From contig JAQBTX010000004.1 of the NCBI GenBank assembly GCA_027624795.1, forward strand, positions 1-36,450: a stretch of DNA of 36,450 bases, written 5' to 3'. A model generated the notes under the pieces. The model was not told the origin of the DNA and made no database searches. It was given only the letters and a program-made list of their open reading frames with translations. Of the stretch, positions 1,010-14,338 are shown piece by piece. The DNA comes from a bacterium (GTDB lineage Bacteria; Patescibacteriota; Microgenomatia; UBA1406; GWC2-37-13). The position numbers and the translations under genes were made by a program. Within the stretch, counting starts at the first letter, position 1. Every line of letters begins with the position of its first letter.

Positions 1010-2044
1010 TCAGGCTTTTATAAATCGCGCTGCCAAAAAGGTGGTGATGGGGACGGCAGCTATAATACCAATGCTTGATACGAGGGTACGAATTACTTCT
1101 GTTGCAACAAGCTCCATGTTCAATATATGCCAATACGCTCCAAATTGATTTGAGTGAAATAGCACAAAGAGGGGCAACGATGCTCCGGCATATACCAGAA
1201 AAAGGGTATTTACAAGCGATGCAATATGATCACGTCCCACATCCATAGACTCAGTAAACAATTTCCAAAATGAATAATTCCTATTTGCTTGTTTCAATTT
1301 CTCTACAATTGCAGCTTGAGATATAGTAATATCATCCAAAACCCCCATGGCGCCAATTATGATTCCAGCAAGGAGCAAGCTCTGGAGGTGAATTTGTGAA
1401 TTATCAATTACCAAGAAAGTTACCTCGTCTGAAGAGTAGCCGGTAAGCTTTGAAAGATTCACAAATAATACCGCCAGTAAGCCAGTGAGAACTAAACTTA
1501 AAAAGGTACCCACAATAGCAACCGTGGTTTTGGTATTAATTCCATGTGATATATAAAATGAGAGAGGAATAAGGAAAAGCGCTGCCAAGAGAGAAATGAC
1601 GATCGGATTGGTTCCTAATAATATTTGAGGCACAATCATGTTGCCAATAAAACCAAACGTAATAATCATACCAATAAATGACATAACACCTTTTTTCTTT
1701 CCAATACCTATGACTACCAAAAAAAACAACAGAAATAGCCATATGAGCGATGGAACACGATATTTATCTACAATCATTACGCCAAGCTCCTTTGTATTTT
1801 GAGGGATACTTACAAGAACTGTTGAACCCTCTTCTAAAGAAAATCGCTCAATAAGTTGTTCATCAAAATATACTACCGGCATGATTGTTCCTGCCAACTC
1901 ACCCTCTTTTAATTCAACCTCAATAGTTTGCGTGGTAAACGTAGTAATCACTGCGCGCATCTGTTCTTCTTTTGCGTATACGGGGAAAGCAGTAGTAAAA
2001 ACTACCCCAACAAGGAGGAGAATACGAAAAATAAAAGAATACAT
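1010..2044 (-). CDS. YibE/F family membrane protein
   Basis: The 344-residue polytopic protein has a signal-like N-terminus (to about residue 24), a small extracytoplasmic beta-type region to about residue 95, then about seven or eight membrane segments. The family signature motifs are present: G-A-M-G-V-L-D-D-I-T in the middle and D-V-G-R-D-H-I shortly after. YibE/F proteins are widespread in Firmicutes and CPR and have no established function; transport is often guessed. The gene lies 9 bp downstream of the VKOR-DHODH fusion on the same strand and is probably cotranscribed with it. The family assignment is firm, the role unknown. Confidence 0.88.
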   Translation of the reverse strand: MYSFIFRILLLVGVVFTTAFPVYAKEEQMRAVITTFTTQTIEVELKEGELAGTIMPVVYFDEQLIERFSLEEGSTVLVSIPQNTKELGVMIVDKYRVPSLIWLFLLFFLVVIGIGKKKGVMSFIGMIITFGFIGNMIVPQILLGTNPIVISLLAALFLIPLSFYISHGINTKTTVAIVGTFLSLVLTGLLAVLFVNLSKLTGYSSDEVTFLVIDNSQIHLQSLLLAGIIIGAMGVLDDITISQAAIVEKLKQANRNYSFWKLFTESMDVGRDHIASLVNTLFLVYAGASLPLFVLFHSNQFGAYWHILNMELVATEVIRTLVSSIGIIAAVPITTFLAARFIKA

Positions 2045-2053
2045 AGATATAAA

Positions 2054-3607
2054 TTATTGAGTGTCGACTCCAATTGCTTCACTTATGGAATTAAAGCCAT
2101 CTTGCTTGAGGAGTTGCACAAGGCCTCGATTTATTTGAGTTATGATCTGAGGCCCTTCAAAGATCATCCCCGTAATCATTTGTATGAGCGATGCTCCCAA
2201 GCGAATTTTGCGATATGCATCCTCTGCACTAAATATACCACCACATCCTATGATGATAAGTTTTTTTCCGTACTCTCGGTAAGCGAGTCGGATGAGCTCG
2301 TTTGATCTTTTAAATGTCGGCTTGCCACTAAAATTTCCCTTTCCTGCTTTTTCAATTTCTTCTGGTATAAATGACGGGTACTTACGATCTTTTTGCAAGT
2401 TTCCAAATATGACCCCTTTGATCCATGTATGCTTCACGATTTCTTTGAGCATGAGTGATACTTCCCGATCACTTTTTTCTATGGGCATTTTTACGAATAC
2501 TGGTTTTGTAATAGTGAGAGTATCAAGCGCATTCAGAAGTTCCTTTAAATTCTTGGGTGGATAAAAGCTCACTCCCCCCTTTAAGTTTGGACAGCTGATA
2601 TTGAGTTCATAATATGAATTTTTGAGTGGTGATGCTAAAAATTTCTCAAATGCCACCACAACATCTTTCACCGCTTTTTGCTGCGTTCCTGCAATTTTGG
2701 TTGAATTGGTGCGTCCAATACTTATGCCCAGAGGAAATGAAAATGACATACCGGTGAGTTTTTTGACGATGGTATCGGCTCCTGGATTGCGAAATCCTTT
2801 ATTGACAAGAAGTGACTTTGATTTTACCAGTCTTCCCAGTCGTGGTTTTTTATTGCCTTCAAATGGGTAGTTACTTATAGTACCAATTGTTTCAAATCCG
2901 AACCCAATTGAGGGAAGAATTTGAGGAAACGCCGCTTCATAATCGTACCCAGCAGACAAACCAATAGGATTTAGAAATTTCATACCTGCAATCTTTTGGT
3001 TGAGAGACACATGACTATATGTGAAGTGCCGTGATGCTATAGTGCGAATAATACGCACCTTCCCCATCTTCTCCCCCCACCACATCGCCTGCTCGTGCAC
3101 CCATTCTGGAGAAAGGAGAAAGAGTATGGGTTTTACGGCAAGTTTATATACAAATTCGGTTTTTTCTAGCACAAACACACGATAATCGTCGTGATATTCG
3201 ATGCGAATTAGAATATAGAGTAGTGTACTAATAAGGGCAGAGAGCAAACAGTACTGACACAAAGATTTAATGACAAAAAATTGTAAATATACAAAATATA
3301 TCGATAATATAAGTCCGATGGCACTTTGAATAAAGAGGAATCGTTTATAAAATATGTCTCCCATAGCTCTGACTGTTTGGAGGAGTATTCCCAAAAACAA
3401 ATAGTGAATCAATCCCAGTAGTGCAAGCGATACACCAAAAATGATTGAATAACTGCTATGAAGAACCTTGCCACAATCACCAAATATGCTATTGGTGCAG
3501 AGTGCATACGGTTGAAAAAAATGGTTATATGAAAGATATGATGTGTCAAAGATTGCAACGAGAAGAAGTATGGTTAGAATGAGAGGAATGCGTTTACGTG
3601 GTTCCAT
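2054..3607 (-). CDS. pyrD: VKOR domain fused to dihydroorotate dehydrogenase
   Basis: One uninterrupted ORF encodes two quinone-linked enzymes (numbering from the upstream ATG at 3610). Residues 8-137 are a VKOR-like four-helix bundle with loop cysteines C38 and C46, S53 and a C118-Q-Y-C121 redox pair. Residues 155-518 are dihydroorotate dehydrogenase: the class-2 style entry segment (160-200), G-L-S-A-G-Y-D (217-223), N-I-S-C-P-N (337-342), K374 and a G-C-G-G-I phosphate-binding loop. The VKOR part should move electrons from thiols to quinone, and the DHODH part from dihydroorotate to FMN and then perhaps quinone. C340 occupies the catalytic-base position, where class 2 normally has Ser. I chose the second ATG (3607) because TACAAT at 3614-3619 lies exactly 6 nt before it; 3610 is the alternative. 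Probably first gene of an operon with the YibE/F gene. Confidence 0.85.
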   Translation of the reverse strand: MEPRKRIPLILTILLLVAIFDTSYLSYNHFFQPYALCTNSIFGDCGKVLHSSYSIIFGVSLALLGLIHYLFLGILLQTVRAMGDIFYKRFLFIQSAIGLILSIYFVYLQFFVIKSLCQYCLLSALISTLLYILIRIEYHDDYRVFVLEKTEFVYKLAVKPILFLLSPEWVHEQAMWWGEKMGKVRIIRTIASRHFTYSHVSLNQKIAGMKFLNPIGLSAGYDYEAAFPQILPSIGFGFETIGTISNYPFEGNKKPRLGRLVKSKSLLVNKGFRNPGADTIVKKLTGMSFSFPLGISIGRTNSTKIAGTQQKAVKDVVVAFEKFLASPLKNSYYELNISCPNLKGGVSFYPPKNLKELLNALDTLTITKPVFVKMPIEKSDREVSLMLKEIVKHTWIKGVIFGNLQKDRKYPSFIPEEIEKAGKGNFSGKPTFKRSNELIRLAYREYGKKLIIIGCGGIFSAEDAYRKIRLGASLIQMITGMIFEGPQIITQINRGLVQLLKQDGFNSISEAIGVDTQ

Positions 3608-3627
3608 CATGATATTGTACCACCAAC

Positions 3628-4450
3628 TTATTTTTTCGTTCTCATTAAATAAAATAGATAACCCAATGATGCTACCAATCCAACGGACAATATAATTGTC
3701 GCAATGTTCATGGTATTTTGGGTACTTTGAGCCCCAAGGACACGGGAATTATTGGATTGTTGACTCTTGTTTATTGCAAATATCGGCCCATCTTCAACAT
3801 TTTTTGGTGCCAACTGCTCTTGTATGGTAGAAATTATTTGTTGAATGATGGGCGGGAAAACAATGAGTTCTTGAGTTACTGAATCTGAAGCTCCTTGCAC
3901 TTCCCCCTCCGATGCCGGAGCCGTCGATGGTGGGGTTGGTGTTGGAGTTATGGTAGGAACAAAGTATCCAAAAAGCATGTCAAATTGAGTATATTGACCT
4001 TGATATTCGTTTCCCGCCTTTTTATTCATCGTTACGGTATATTCAAATGAATCAGTTTTACCTGGACCAAGTGTTCCAAGTACCGCCTCAGAGGTATCGT
4101 AAAATTCTCGAAGAGTACTTGTCCATATGGTCTTATTTACACTTTTTCGAACAATAGTTAAGTCAAGCACTTTTGCAATATCGGCATCTGGCGAGGATCG
4201 AACATTATATGCCCTATGCCCTATGCCCTACATATTGACTCGTATCTCCCCTGTTGGTAACAGTAACGGTATTTTTTGCTGAATAGGTAGGGTACCACAA
4301 TACCTGCCCATCAAAAAACGAGGTAATTGATGAGGGAGTACATTTATCTTCATCACACTTAAGTGAAAAGTCGGATGCAATAACAGATGGTACATAAAGG
4401 AAAAAATGCATCCCCGTAATAATGAGAAAGATTCCCAGATATCTTTTCAT
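3628..4450 (-). pseudogene. surface protein gene frameshifted by a 7-bp tandem repeat
   Basis: As written, translation from ATG 4450 stops at TAG 4214-4216 after 78 codons, and the rest of the gene is open in another frame from about 4200 to 3628. The stop lies inside three copies of a 7-bp unit. Removing one unit joins both halves into a 271-residue protein. That protein has a signal peptide (to about residue 25), a beta-sandwich domain with an A-G-N-E-Y-Q-G-Q motif reminiscent of TasA/camelysin-type proteins, a Thr-Pro linker, and a C-terminal membrane helix ending R-T-K-K. Its ATG overlaps the TGA of the upstream FAD oxidoreductase (ATGA), so translation is coupled. It may be phase-variable, decayed, or an assembly slip. 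The exact family is uncertain. Confidence 0.75.
4208..4230. repeat. TGCCCTA heptamer, three copies, in coding sequence
   Basis: Three perfect copies of TGCCCTA occupy 4210-4230, with two more matching bases (TA) to the left. Because 7 is not a multiple of 3, each gain or loss changes the frame of the surface protein gene. Two copies (or five) restore reading; the three copies present create an immediate TAG. This is the expected arrangement for slipped-strand phase variation, but three copies is short for a hypermutable tract. Confidence 0.85.
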
Positions 4451-5712
4451 ACTATTTGTCCTGCCACACGCTGTCCTAACTCAACAGCAAAATTGGTCCC
4501 CCGATCCCACGGGTATACTTGTTGCATATTGGCCAAATAGATACCAACAAGTGGAGTTTCAAAGGGTAGTATATTCTGAGAAAAATTCTTCGTTACGATG
4601 GGTTGAGCAAATGGTGCATGAAATATATGAGTTTTCAGAACGTGCTTGCTATAGCCTGGATGAAGTTTTTCTAAATAGGGATGATATTCTTTCAAGAGAT
4701 CTTCTTTGTTCATACGAAAATAGGGATGATCATGTGAAAGATAGTTTCCAACATAGAGTATATGAGTTCCATTGTAGTGCTCTTTTGGAATGAAGTTGGT
4801 GTGCTCTACTACTGCCAAAAATGGATACTCCCGATCACACATATTGAGCCAATATACATCATCTTTCAAAAAAGGAGCGTCAAGCTCTAATACCATATTA
4901 ACGGCACCAATTCCTTTAAACGATGTTAACTTTTTGATATATTCTCGAGGAAGGGTAGGAGTCATACGAGCAAATAGTCCATTTGGCACGGTTACAATCA
5001 CACGATCAAACAACTCTGTTTTTGATCCATGAGTAATGTGAATTGATGAATTGAGTTTTTCGATCTTAGTGACGATGCTGTTATAGTGAATAATCCCACC
5101 AGCTTGATTCACGGTATCAGCAAGTTTTTGTGAAAAATGTTGAAAACCACCTTCTGGGTACCCAAGCTGAGTTGTGCGTGCTTTGATACGCGCCCAAAAC
5201 CATGCTAAAGAAATATCTTTATAATATGATCCAAACTTTGCTTTCAGAAGTGGTTCCCATAAGGTACCGTACGGCACCTTGCCCACTGCTTTTTGCAACC
5301 AATCATGTGCAGTAAATTGTTCTAATTTCTGCCAGTTGGCAATATATTTAAGATACGCTAGCACTGCGCCCATGCGCACTCGATCAATAAAAGGTATCGC
5401 ATGAAACTGAAGAAGCTTAACTGGTGAATCAAGTTGGATAATTTCATCATCTATAAGAGATGACGTATTGGGCCGCATAAAATGAAACGGCACGCCAATT
5501 TCTTCAGACAGAGCGCGTATGGCTGTATCAGAGGTAAATATATGATGATAATGTTTTTCCAAAGACCAATCCCATTTGGGTTGTTGAAATCCAATAGCAA
5601 GTCCCCCAGGAATAGTTTCTTGCTCAAAAATTGTCACCATGTGTCCTTGTTTTTGAAGCGCAAATCCTGCAGATAATCCAGTGAATCCAGCCCCAACAAT
5701 AGCTATATGCAT
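4447..5712 (-). CDS. FAD-dependent amine-oxidase-like oxidoreductase
   Basis: The 421-residue protein starts with a dinucleotide-binding beta-alpha-beta unit (G7-A-G9-F-T-G12, then an acidic strand end and P-G-G-L), typical of the amine oxidase / protoporphyrinogen oxidase / UDP-galactopyranose mutase group. A C-terminal segment around P-W-D-R-G-T-N resembles the second FAD contact of this group. The substrate cannot be told from sequence; in CPR such proteins often sit in envelope glycan or lipid loci. It is divergent from the 40-residue membrane peptide gene. TACAAT at 5718-5723 lies 5 nt before the ATG. It overlaps the downstream surface protein gene by 4 bases. Confidence 0.82.
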   Translation of the reverse strand: MHIAIVGAGFTGLSAGFALQKQGHMVTIFEQETIPGGLAIGFQQPKWDWSLEKHYHHIFTSDTAIRALSEEIGVPFHFMRPNTSSLIDDEIIQLDSPVKLLQFHAIPFIDRVRMGAVLAYLKYIANWQKLEQFTAHDWLQKAVGKVPYGTLWEPLLKAKFGSYYKDISLAWFWARIKARTTQLGYPEGGFQHFSQKLADTVNQAGGIIHYNSIVTKIEKLNSSIHITHGSKTELFDRVIVTVPNGLFARMTPTLPREYIKKLTSFKGIGAVNMVLELDAPFLKDDVYWLNMCDREYPFLAVVEHTNFIPKEHYNGTHILYVGNYLSHDHPYFRMNKEDLLKEYHPYLEKLHPGYSKHVLKTHIFHAPFAQPIVTKNFSQNILPFETPLVGIYLANMQQVYPWDRGTNFAVELGQRVAGQIV

Positions 5713-12939: not shown

Positions 12940-13764
12940 ATGATACCAGCATTTCTCATCACCTTTCGAGAAGTTATCGAGGCCACTCTTATAGTGGCAA
13001 CAATTCTGGGCATACTCTACAAGCTCGGGCACCATAAGAGTATTAAAACAGTGTGGCACGCCACTGGACTTGCAGTTCTGTTGAGCGTTGGGCTCCTTGT
13101 GGGAGGAAGCTTTTTTGGCGTAGCAATGCAAGAAGCATACTCAGGTGCAACTGAAGAGTTAATTGAAGGAATTCTTATGATCGTATCTGCGGTGTTTATC
13201 ACATGGGCGGTATTTTTCTTACATAATTATTTTGGTAGATATAAAGTTCAATTACTTCAAAAGGTAAAAGAGACCATGGAAAAACAAGAAAACAAGGGCT
13301 TGTTTTTACTCGTATTTACTGCAGTATTTCGTGAAGGATTTGAAATCGTTCTTTTTTTATCTACCATCTATTTTGCATCCAATCCCGTTCAAATCTTTAC
13401 AGGATTCAGTTTCGGAATTATTGCGGGCCTTTTAGTTTCGCTTGCATTCTTTAGCGCTACCTTAAAGATGCCGGTGTACTATGCTTTCCGGGTAACAAGC
13501 ATACTACTCATCCTCTTTGCAGCAGGACTCCTTGCACGAGGAGTGCATGAATTTGCCGAAATTGGGCTAGTACCAGAGATGGGCAGCCTTATATTTTCAT
13601 TTATTCCCGCTAAAGGAACAGTAGCTGGCGACATCATAAAATCCATGTTTGGCATAACACAAAAAATGGATTATATTCAAGCTTCTCTTTACGCATTGTA
13701 CACTGCAGCAATGACCTGGTATGTATTTTTCAATAAAGAATCTACAAAGAAAACCGATGCTTGA
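12940..13764 (+). CDS. FTR1 family iron permease
   Basis: The 274-residue, seven-helix protein carries both family iron motifs, R10-E-V-I-E14 and R131-E-G-F-E135, plus E-G-I-L-M between them. FTR1/EfeU permeases take up ferric iron, usually with an oxidase or periplasmic partner; no EfeO or EfeB homologue is seen. The next gene, convergent, is a ferric-reductase-like protein, and the two overlap by 23 bp. Start chosen at ATG 12940, 6 nt after TATAAT. Confidence 0.92.
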   Translation: MIPAFLITFREVIEATLIVATILGILYKLGHHKSIKTVWHATGLAVLLSVGLLVGGSFFGVAMQEAYSGATEELIEGILMIVSAVFITWAVFFLHNYFGRYKVQLLQKVKETMEKQENKGLFLLVFTAVFREGFEIVLFLSTIYFASNPVQIFTGFSFGIIAGLLVSLAFFSATLKMPVYYAFRVTSILLILFAAGLLARGVHEFAEIGLVPEMGSLIFSFIPAKGTVAGDIIKSMFGITQKMDYIQASLYALYTAAMTWYVFFNKESTKKTDA

Positions 13765-14338
13765 TGTGAGAGGTTACTTCGAGTAATGCAACTATTCCCA
13801 ATGATAGTGCCAGAATACTGATCTGTTGCAATGCTACATGAGAAAATATGAGCCAGACAGTAATATAGGCGATACGATGGATTCTTTTCCACCATTTACC
13901 AAGTTTTTTTACACTGAAGTCATTTGAGGTTATATATAAAGGAGCCAGAGAATAAAGTGTAAAGAAGCCAACTATTTCAAATAGAGGTGGATCTAAATCG
14001 AATGGCACTCCCCCAAATAATACAGGAAACAAACGGATCGCCGAGTAATGCAATAATCCAAAAAGAAACATACTCACTCCAAGTTGTCTGCGAAAGAGCA
14101 TGAGAACGGTGAAGGCGATATGTTGAATCTTAAACCTCCGCGCAATACCAGGAAGAAGAGTAAGTATAAAAAACCATGCAGCTATTGAACCGCATGTTAC
14201 CCCTACTTCATATATAACTCCTTTATGAATATCAAGGTTAATCCAATAAGCAAAAAGTGCCAATATCCCAAAAATAGATACATGCAATACTTGAAAGATA
14301 TTTATGAAATCTTTTTTATGCGTTAATAGTCTTTGCAT
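13742..14338 (-). CDS. ferric-reductase-like transmembrane protein (MsrQ/YedZ type)
   Basis: The 198-residue protein has about six membrane helices with histidines spaced as haem ligands: F-R-R-Q-L-G followed by L-L-H-Y, and later H-R-I-A-Y and S-H-V. This matches the ferric reductase-like transmembrane domain, which in bacteria includes the haem-binding MsrQ subunit. No NADPH-binding module or MsrP partner is visible, so the electron donor and acceptor are unknown. Its position against the FTR1 gene suggests iron reduction, which is inference. TATACT (14345-14350, minus) lies 6 nt before the ATG. Confidence 0.82.
   Translation of the reverse strand: MQRLLTHKKDFINIFQVLHVSIFGILALFAYWINLDIHKGVIYEVGVTCGSIAAWFFILTLLPGIARRFKIQHIAFTVLMLFRRQLGVSMFLFGLLHYSAIRLFPVLFGGVPFDLDPPLFEIVGFFTLYSLAPLYITSNDFSVKKLGKWWKRIHRIAYITVWLIFSHVALQQISILALSLGIVALLEVTSHIKHRFSL

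Follow-up and report, generated by a model that had tools for sequence, protein, structure and literature searches.

Within the window, the 36,450-nucleotide stretch of contig JAQBTX010000004.1 (assembly GCA_027624795.1) that we analysed, one open reading frame encodes both a VKOR domain and a dihydroorotate dehydrogenase (DHODH)-like flavin domain (Table 1). The Pfam VKOR model (PF07884) matched residues 11–134 (E 4.8e-20, 72.5 bits against a cut-off of 27.5), and DHO_dh matched residues 203–501 (E 2.3e-49, far over its gathering score). The NCBIfam model for quinone DHODHs, TIGR01036, scored 226 bits, over its cut-off of 200, beginning at residue 159. The two folds are therefore joined in one polypeptide, as the original prediction, made from the sequence alone, had proposed.

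Table 1. Features of the fusion gene, its neighbours and one other gene of the window (E. coli positions refer to PyrD).
Feature	Coordinates	Strand	Basis
VKOR-DHODH-like fusion gene	2054..3610	-	ATG start, 518 aa + stop, single frame
VKOR domain, residues 1–138, four predicted transmembrane helices	3197..3610	-	Pfam VKOR 11–134; model
Loop Cys pair C38 + C46 (shuttle pair)	3473..3499	-	Alignment of fused proteins
C118-Q-Y-C121, CxxC beside quinone site	3248..3259	-	Kept in 23/23 fused proteins
Link and N-terminal class-2-type helices, residues 140–200, including H172 (E. coli H19)	3011..3193	-	Model; alignment
FMN barrel, class 2 DHODH type, residues 203–518	2057..3004	-	Pfam DHO_dh 203–501; Foldseek
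Y224, E. coli K66 position	2939..2941	-	58-member alignment
R260, E. coli R102 position (quinone tunnel)	2831..2833	-	58/58 in alignment
V269-N270-K271, E. coli N111-R112-M113 positions	2798..2806	-	58-member alignment
C340, catalytic serine S175 position	2591..2593	-	Cys in 58/58
L405, E. coli T247 position	2396..2398	-	Leu in 58/58
YibE/F-like membrane protein, 9 bases downstream of fusion	1010..2044	-	Pfam YibE_F
Exported-protein gene, directly upstream of fusion	3628..4480	-	Signal peptide, CDEDKC pair, C-terminal membrane helix
FAD-dependent amine-oxidase-like gene, upstream of fusion	4447..5712	-	Pfam Amino_oxidase
Ferric-reductase/MsrQ-like haem membrane protein	13742..14338	-	PF01794; MsrQ match below cut-off; adjoins FTR1 iron permease

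In an AlphaFold2 model of the protein (pLDDT 92.8, pTM 0.89), both halves were predicted with confidence. The VKOR half was modelled as four helices (residues 4–32, 62–83, 86–114 and 119–138), and three more (140–163, 168–184 and 186–196) make up the link and the N-terminal helices of the flavin half. The four-helix VKOR domain and its cysteines, C38, C46 and C118xxC121, lie where they had been placed from the sequence. Class 2 DHODHs were the top structural matches found by Foldseek (for example 8ofw, TM score 0.94 by target), and the class-2-type DHODH fold spans residues ~154–517.

Homologues of the amine-oxidase-like gene lie upstream of the fusion at loci L002/L021, L003, L005/L022, L006/L023 and L019, and further off in L058. 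The YibE/F-like gene occupies the same place in L004/L058 and L005/L022. Both neighbours, the FAD oxidoreductase and YibE/F, are kept only among near relatives and vary elsewhere, so the gene context gives no substrate, and we set aside gene order as a guide to function. The exported-protein gene between the fusion and the amine-oxidase-like gene is interrupted by a frameshift where the 7-base repeat TAGGGCA occurs three times (~4207–4230), which could reflect either phase variation or an assembly error; its relative in L003 is intact, at 292 aa.

The host genome (1.07 Mb in 80 contigs, 98% complete) is closest to genomes named Candidatus Roizmanbacteria. The full-length fusion frame is also present in many near genomes and on contigs named Roizmanbacteria (many of them) and Gottesmanbacteria, and it recurs uninterrupted in independent assemblies at 46–68% identity over its full length. 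Across the class, the fusion was found in 41 of 373 sampled genomes, distributed over eight families, and a member of the flavin family in 91 of the 373. Counting as fused those proteins whose match starts at or before residue 15, VKOR fusions account for 41 of the 86 family members tallied. The draft genome behind the window is fragmented, and one might suppose that an assembly or annotation artefact had joined two genes. We found no positive evidence for this; the uninterrupted frame appears in dozens of independent assemblies, some on contigs of several hundred kb, and we put the probability of an artefact close to nil. The same recurrence excludes a chimera or frameshift in the stretch from residue 137 to residue 160, one of two outcomes that the original prediction had named as fatal. 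The other, that homologues always carry the domains as separate genes, is contradicted by the taxonomic spread of the fused form. The fusion is a genuine, conserved architecture.

Its history is less simple. The tree of the family requires several gains or losses of the fusion, with no resolution at the root of the fused clade. The protein of L018 has probably lost its VKOR domain, because it is unfused yet nested within the fused clade. One fusion (G391:C15:14650-16172) is carried in two open frames of 262 and 302 aa, consistent with a pseudogene, a sequencing error or a fission. Another, at L035 (39% identity), lies on a contig titled Candidatus Methylomirabilis (DYJS01000006.1) in a bin of ~0.7 Mb; this title may reflect misbinning or misnaming of a CPR genome. 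Unfused members of the flavin family are spread over many CPR phyla and also appear under the record names Lampropedia, Saprospirales and Thiotrichales.

We aligned 58 members of the family to E. coli PyrD, using a reference sequence checked against 1f76. Because the members were gathered by similarity to the query, the invariance of any residue among the 58 is conditional on that choice. In class 2 structures, positions 66, 111, 113, 175 and 247 (E. coli numbering) line the dihydroorotate/FMN site, where N111 and T247 contact the substrate directly, and H19 and R102 form part of the quinone tunnel. A published active-site list that includes human Lys100, Asn145, Tyr147 and Ser215 agrees with the assignment of the equivalent positions (PMC12197698). 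The equivalents of H19 and R102 are kept in all 58 proteins, as are the FMN/active-site residues N172, N177, K217 and N246. The substrate side differs: the catalytic serine S175 is Cys and T247 is Leu in every member, so that neither class 2 residue is kept, and N111 is replaced by V in 54, I in 3 and A in 1. Positions 66 and 113 are Y/K in 31 members and K/Y in 27, with no mixed pairs; the fused proteins aligned at position 66 are of the Y/K type, and K66 is retained in 27 unfused relatives. Judged by these residues, the enzyme has kept its membrane side and altered its substrate side. The canonical class 2 PyrD of the same host genome keeps N111, S175 and T247, along with K66. The flavin domain is thus probably a paralogue of class 2 DHODH whose substrate is not dihydroorotate. 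The earlier description of a complete dihydroorotate dehydrogenase is right for the fold, which is complete, but not for the pocket, which is unlike that of a typical DHODH in the 58-member alignment. With the VKOR cysteines intact and the H19 and R102 equivalents invariant, the description of two quinone-type enzymes in one polypeptide holds.

That the second domain oxidises dihydroorotate had also been proposed, and we consider it unlikely that the protein is a working DHODH with Cys as its base, both domains feeding a single quinone pool that something else empties. The class 2 fold and the TIGR01036 score over cut-off are as expected of such an enzyme, and some fungi that grow anaerobically have active class II DHODHs with Cys for Ser (PMC8520639). 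The family-wide loss of N111 and T247 and the loss of K66 in the fused clade count against it. It would also be redundant in the host, which has two other DHODHs: the canonical class 2 PyrD and, beside it, a class 1B PyrD together with its electron-transfer subunit. Of 23 genomes in the class that bear the family, 17 have an additional DHODH-family protein (over the PF01180 cut-off), as do most of the fused genomes, and several of these additional proteins share a contig with pyrF.

The pyrimidine pathway itself points both ways on such a role. Family searches of the draft genomes found no ATCase in the genus of the window (five genomes at least 91% complete and one less complete), and none over cut-off in 11 of 18 fused genomes. 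ATCase was over cut-off in 7/18 fused genomes versus 2/14 family-negative relatives (p = 0.23, in a small sample of related genomes), and we therefore rejected the idea that presence of the family tracks pyrimidine synthesis. No link to pyr genes was seen in the gene neighbourhoods of the fusion. A search of the window genome did not recover pyrF, but the contig stops beside pyrK and the gene may have fallen in an assembly gap. Two genomes, G025 and G036, do fit a DHODH role, having ATCase and PyrF and no other DHODH over cut-off. In the first, however, the pyrimidine cluster (L079, G025:C2:168000-184000) lacks a DHODH and includes a fumarate-reductase-like FrdA and FrdB pair, and in the second an FrdA-like gene lies near ATCase (G036:C43); it is possible that this flavoprotein substitutes for DHODH in both. 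On these sequence comparisons the fusion does not appear to track the pathway, though it may act as a DHODH in a few genomes. Another divergent family with a DHO_dh domain lies near pyrE and pyrF (L081:9192-11111 and L083:3740-4879); the C-terminal part of the L081 protein has a weak PRTase-CE match, below cut-off.

A single pool filled by both domains also lacks an evident exit. Family searches of the draft genomes for COX1 and cytochrome bd, both positive in control genomes, found neither in 25 genomes. FrdA/SdhA-type proteins were found in 4 of the 25. The shared quinone pool of the original prediction is on this account incomplete by itself: the normal direction of each domain would only fill it. 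The host bacterium apparently has no respiratory chain. Its UbiA homologue scored best, slightly below cut-offs, to decaprenyl-phosphate phosphoribosyltransferase, and we discarded the UbiE matches as uninformative about quinone synthesis, since they resemble general methyltransferases. This suggests, and does not prove, that the host makes no quinone. It may use scavenged quinone, by analogy with Clostridia, for which scavenged quinones or small thiols have been discussed as takers of the electrons from disulfide formation (PMC12453122). The MsrQ-like haem protein of the window is possibly a quinol-linked enzyme.

In the VKOR half, equivalents of C38, C46, C118 and C121 are all present in the 23 fused proteins aligned, although in L035 the first loop Cys is displaced by two alignment columns. 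The fusion is the sole VKOR over cut-off in nearly all fused genomes, and DsbA-like Thioredoxin_4 proteins were found by family search in 24 of 25 genomes. In CPR genomes VKOR frequently adjoins an MdbA/DsbA-like gene (PMC6744442), and characterised bacterial VKORs re-oxidise DsbA or MdbA (PMC5478893; PMC12453122).

The two halves might nevertheless be functionally independent, with VKOR doing its own job and serving the flavin domain mainly as an anchor at the bilayer. This is suggested by Peregrinibacteria, in which the flavin family has gained an unrelated membrane partner, PAP2 (L045:5443-7092, L052:1032-2684 and L070:5443-7095), that would there be the anchor. In the nearest unfused relative, at L044:486-2878, a DedA/UptA-PAP2 gene overlaps the flavin gene. 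By sequence, then, the family has gained a membrane partner on two or more occasions. This is consistent with a flavin domain that acts at the membrane, and it also supports the anchor. The probable loss of VKOR from L018 points the same way, as do the unfused members in genomes without any VKOR (G017, G021, G052, G059, G060 and G063), which imply that the flavin domain has a VKOR-independent job. A mere anchor, however, needs no redox cysteines, and all four are kept in every fused protein aligned; the status of the fusion as sole VKOR indicates that VKOR activity itself is selected; and a class-2 flavin domain already has membrane-binding helices of its own. We regard functional independence as rather unlikely, and coupling of the two halves as plausible.

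How the halves might be coupled depends on their placement. Positive charges occur in three places: the N-terminus, the helix 2–3 loop and the segment following helix 4. Because there are four predicted helices and positive charges mark the inside, both Cys pairs would lie outside, with the FMN domain on the inner face. Rather than sharing one side, the active sites are thus most likely on opposite sides of the membrane.

Our preferred reading, which we advance tentatively, is that the fusion is a transmembrane thiol/quinone/flavin oxidoreductase in which the flavin domain is the outlet of disulfide formation; its orientation, quinone coupling, direction of flow and acceptor are all inferred. 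The VKOR domain would re-oxidise DsbA-like proteins at the outer face and hand two electrons to a membrane quinone, and the cytosolic FMN domain would exchange electrons between that same quinone and some cytosolic small molecule, probably other than dihydroorotate. Net flow would run from thiol to VKOR, quinone, FMN and finally a cytosolic acceptor. This direction seems the most likely one, given that neither COX1 nor cytochrome bd was detected and that both normal directions reduce the pool. There is a real objection. Published FMN potentials of DHODHs are about -240 to -330 mV (PMC8520639), below those of quinones, so that transfer from quinol to a DHODH-type FMN would be uphill if the FMN of the fusion has a similar potential. 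There may also be other quinol sinks, such as the MsrQ-like protein of the window or the FrdA-type proteins. A stronger version we hold to be doubtful: a self-contained disulfide machine for bacteria that do not respire, in which thiol oxidation outside is coupled within one polypeptide, through quinone, to a repurposed DHODH flavin domain that reduces a cytosolic metabolite as its new substrate.

Electrons could also move outward, the FMN domain oxidising a cytosolic metabolite to make quinol and a reversed VKOR reducing the disulfides of exported proteins in a DsbD-like manner. By the same potentials (PMC8520639), this would keep the normal class 2 direction, presumably downhill from FMN to quinone, and would require no external sink. 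It runs against the behaviour of the characterised bacterial VKORs; the partner thioredoxins are of the DsbA-like Thioredoxin_4 kind, and nearly all fused genomes lack a second VKOR that could carry out oxidation. We judge outward flow very improbable.

A conserved disulfide oxidant joined to a flavin domain across the membrane offers a concrete candidate answer to how anaerobes and reduced-genome bacteria that lack a respiratory chain get rid of the electrons that disulfide formation releases. If the outlet reading is true, disulfide formation would have its own electron outlet in cells apparently without a respiratory chain. The naming of the family matters as well: profile libraries call it a quinone-dependent DHODH though its pocket misfits dihydroorotate, which bears on reconstructions of the CPR pyrimidine pathway.

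We found no report of a VKOR-DHODH-like fusion in the open-access literature, in agreement with the earlier remark that no characterised protein of such design is known, and as far as those papers show the architecture is new. Its parts are familiar. It shares with class 2 DHODH (PyrD) the fold, the N-terminal helices, the FMN residues and the quinone-tunnel His and Arg, but differs in the replacement of N111, T247 and S175 throughout the family, in the Y/K pair that stands for K66/M113 in the fused clade and in its N-terminal VKOR. Cys in place of the catalytic Ser on a class 2 fold is also seen in ArUra9, SjUra9 and DbUra9 of anaerobically growing fungi; these are functional DHODHs, and the available part of the report mentions no VKOR (PMC8520639). 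The dihydrouracil oxidases of moulds, once annotated as class 1A DHODHs, are likewise DHODH paralogues with a different substrate that exist beside a canonical DHODH, but they belong to the class 1A branch and use oxygen as acceptor, again with no VKOR mentioned in the portion of the paper available (PMC10395836). On the other side, the four-helix VKOR with its loop pair and CxxC is that of bacterial VKORs, and fusions of VKOR to redox partners are known, such as VKOR-DsbA in Clostridia (PMC12453122); there the partner is an extracytoplasmic thioredoxin-fold protein, whereas here it would be a cytosolic flavin enzyme. The PAP2-DHODH-like fusion of Peregrinibacteria likewise has the same flavin family behind an N-terminal polytopic membrane domain, but there that domain is a lipid-phosphate phosphatase and the flavin domain is of the K66/Y113 type.
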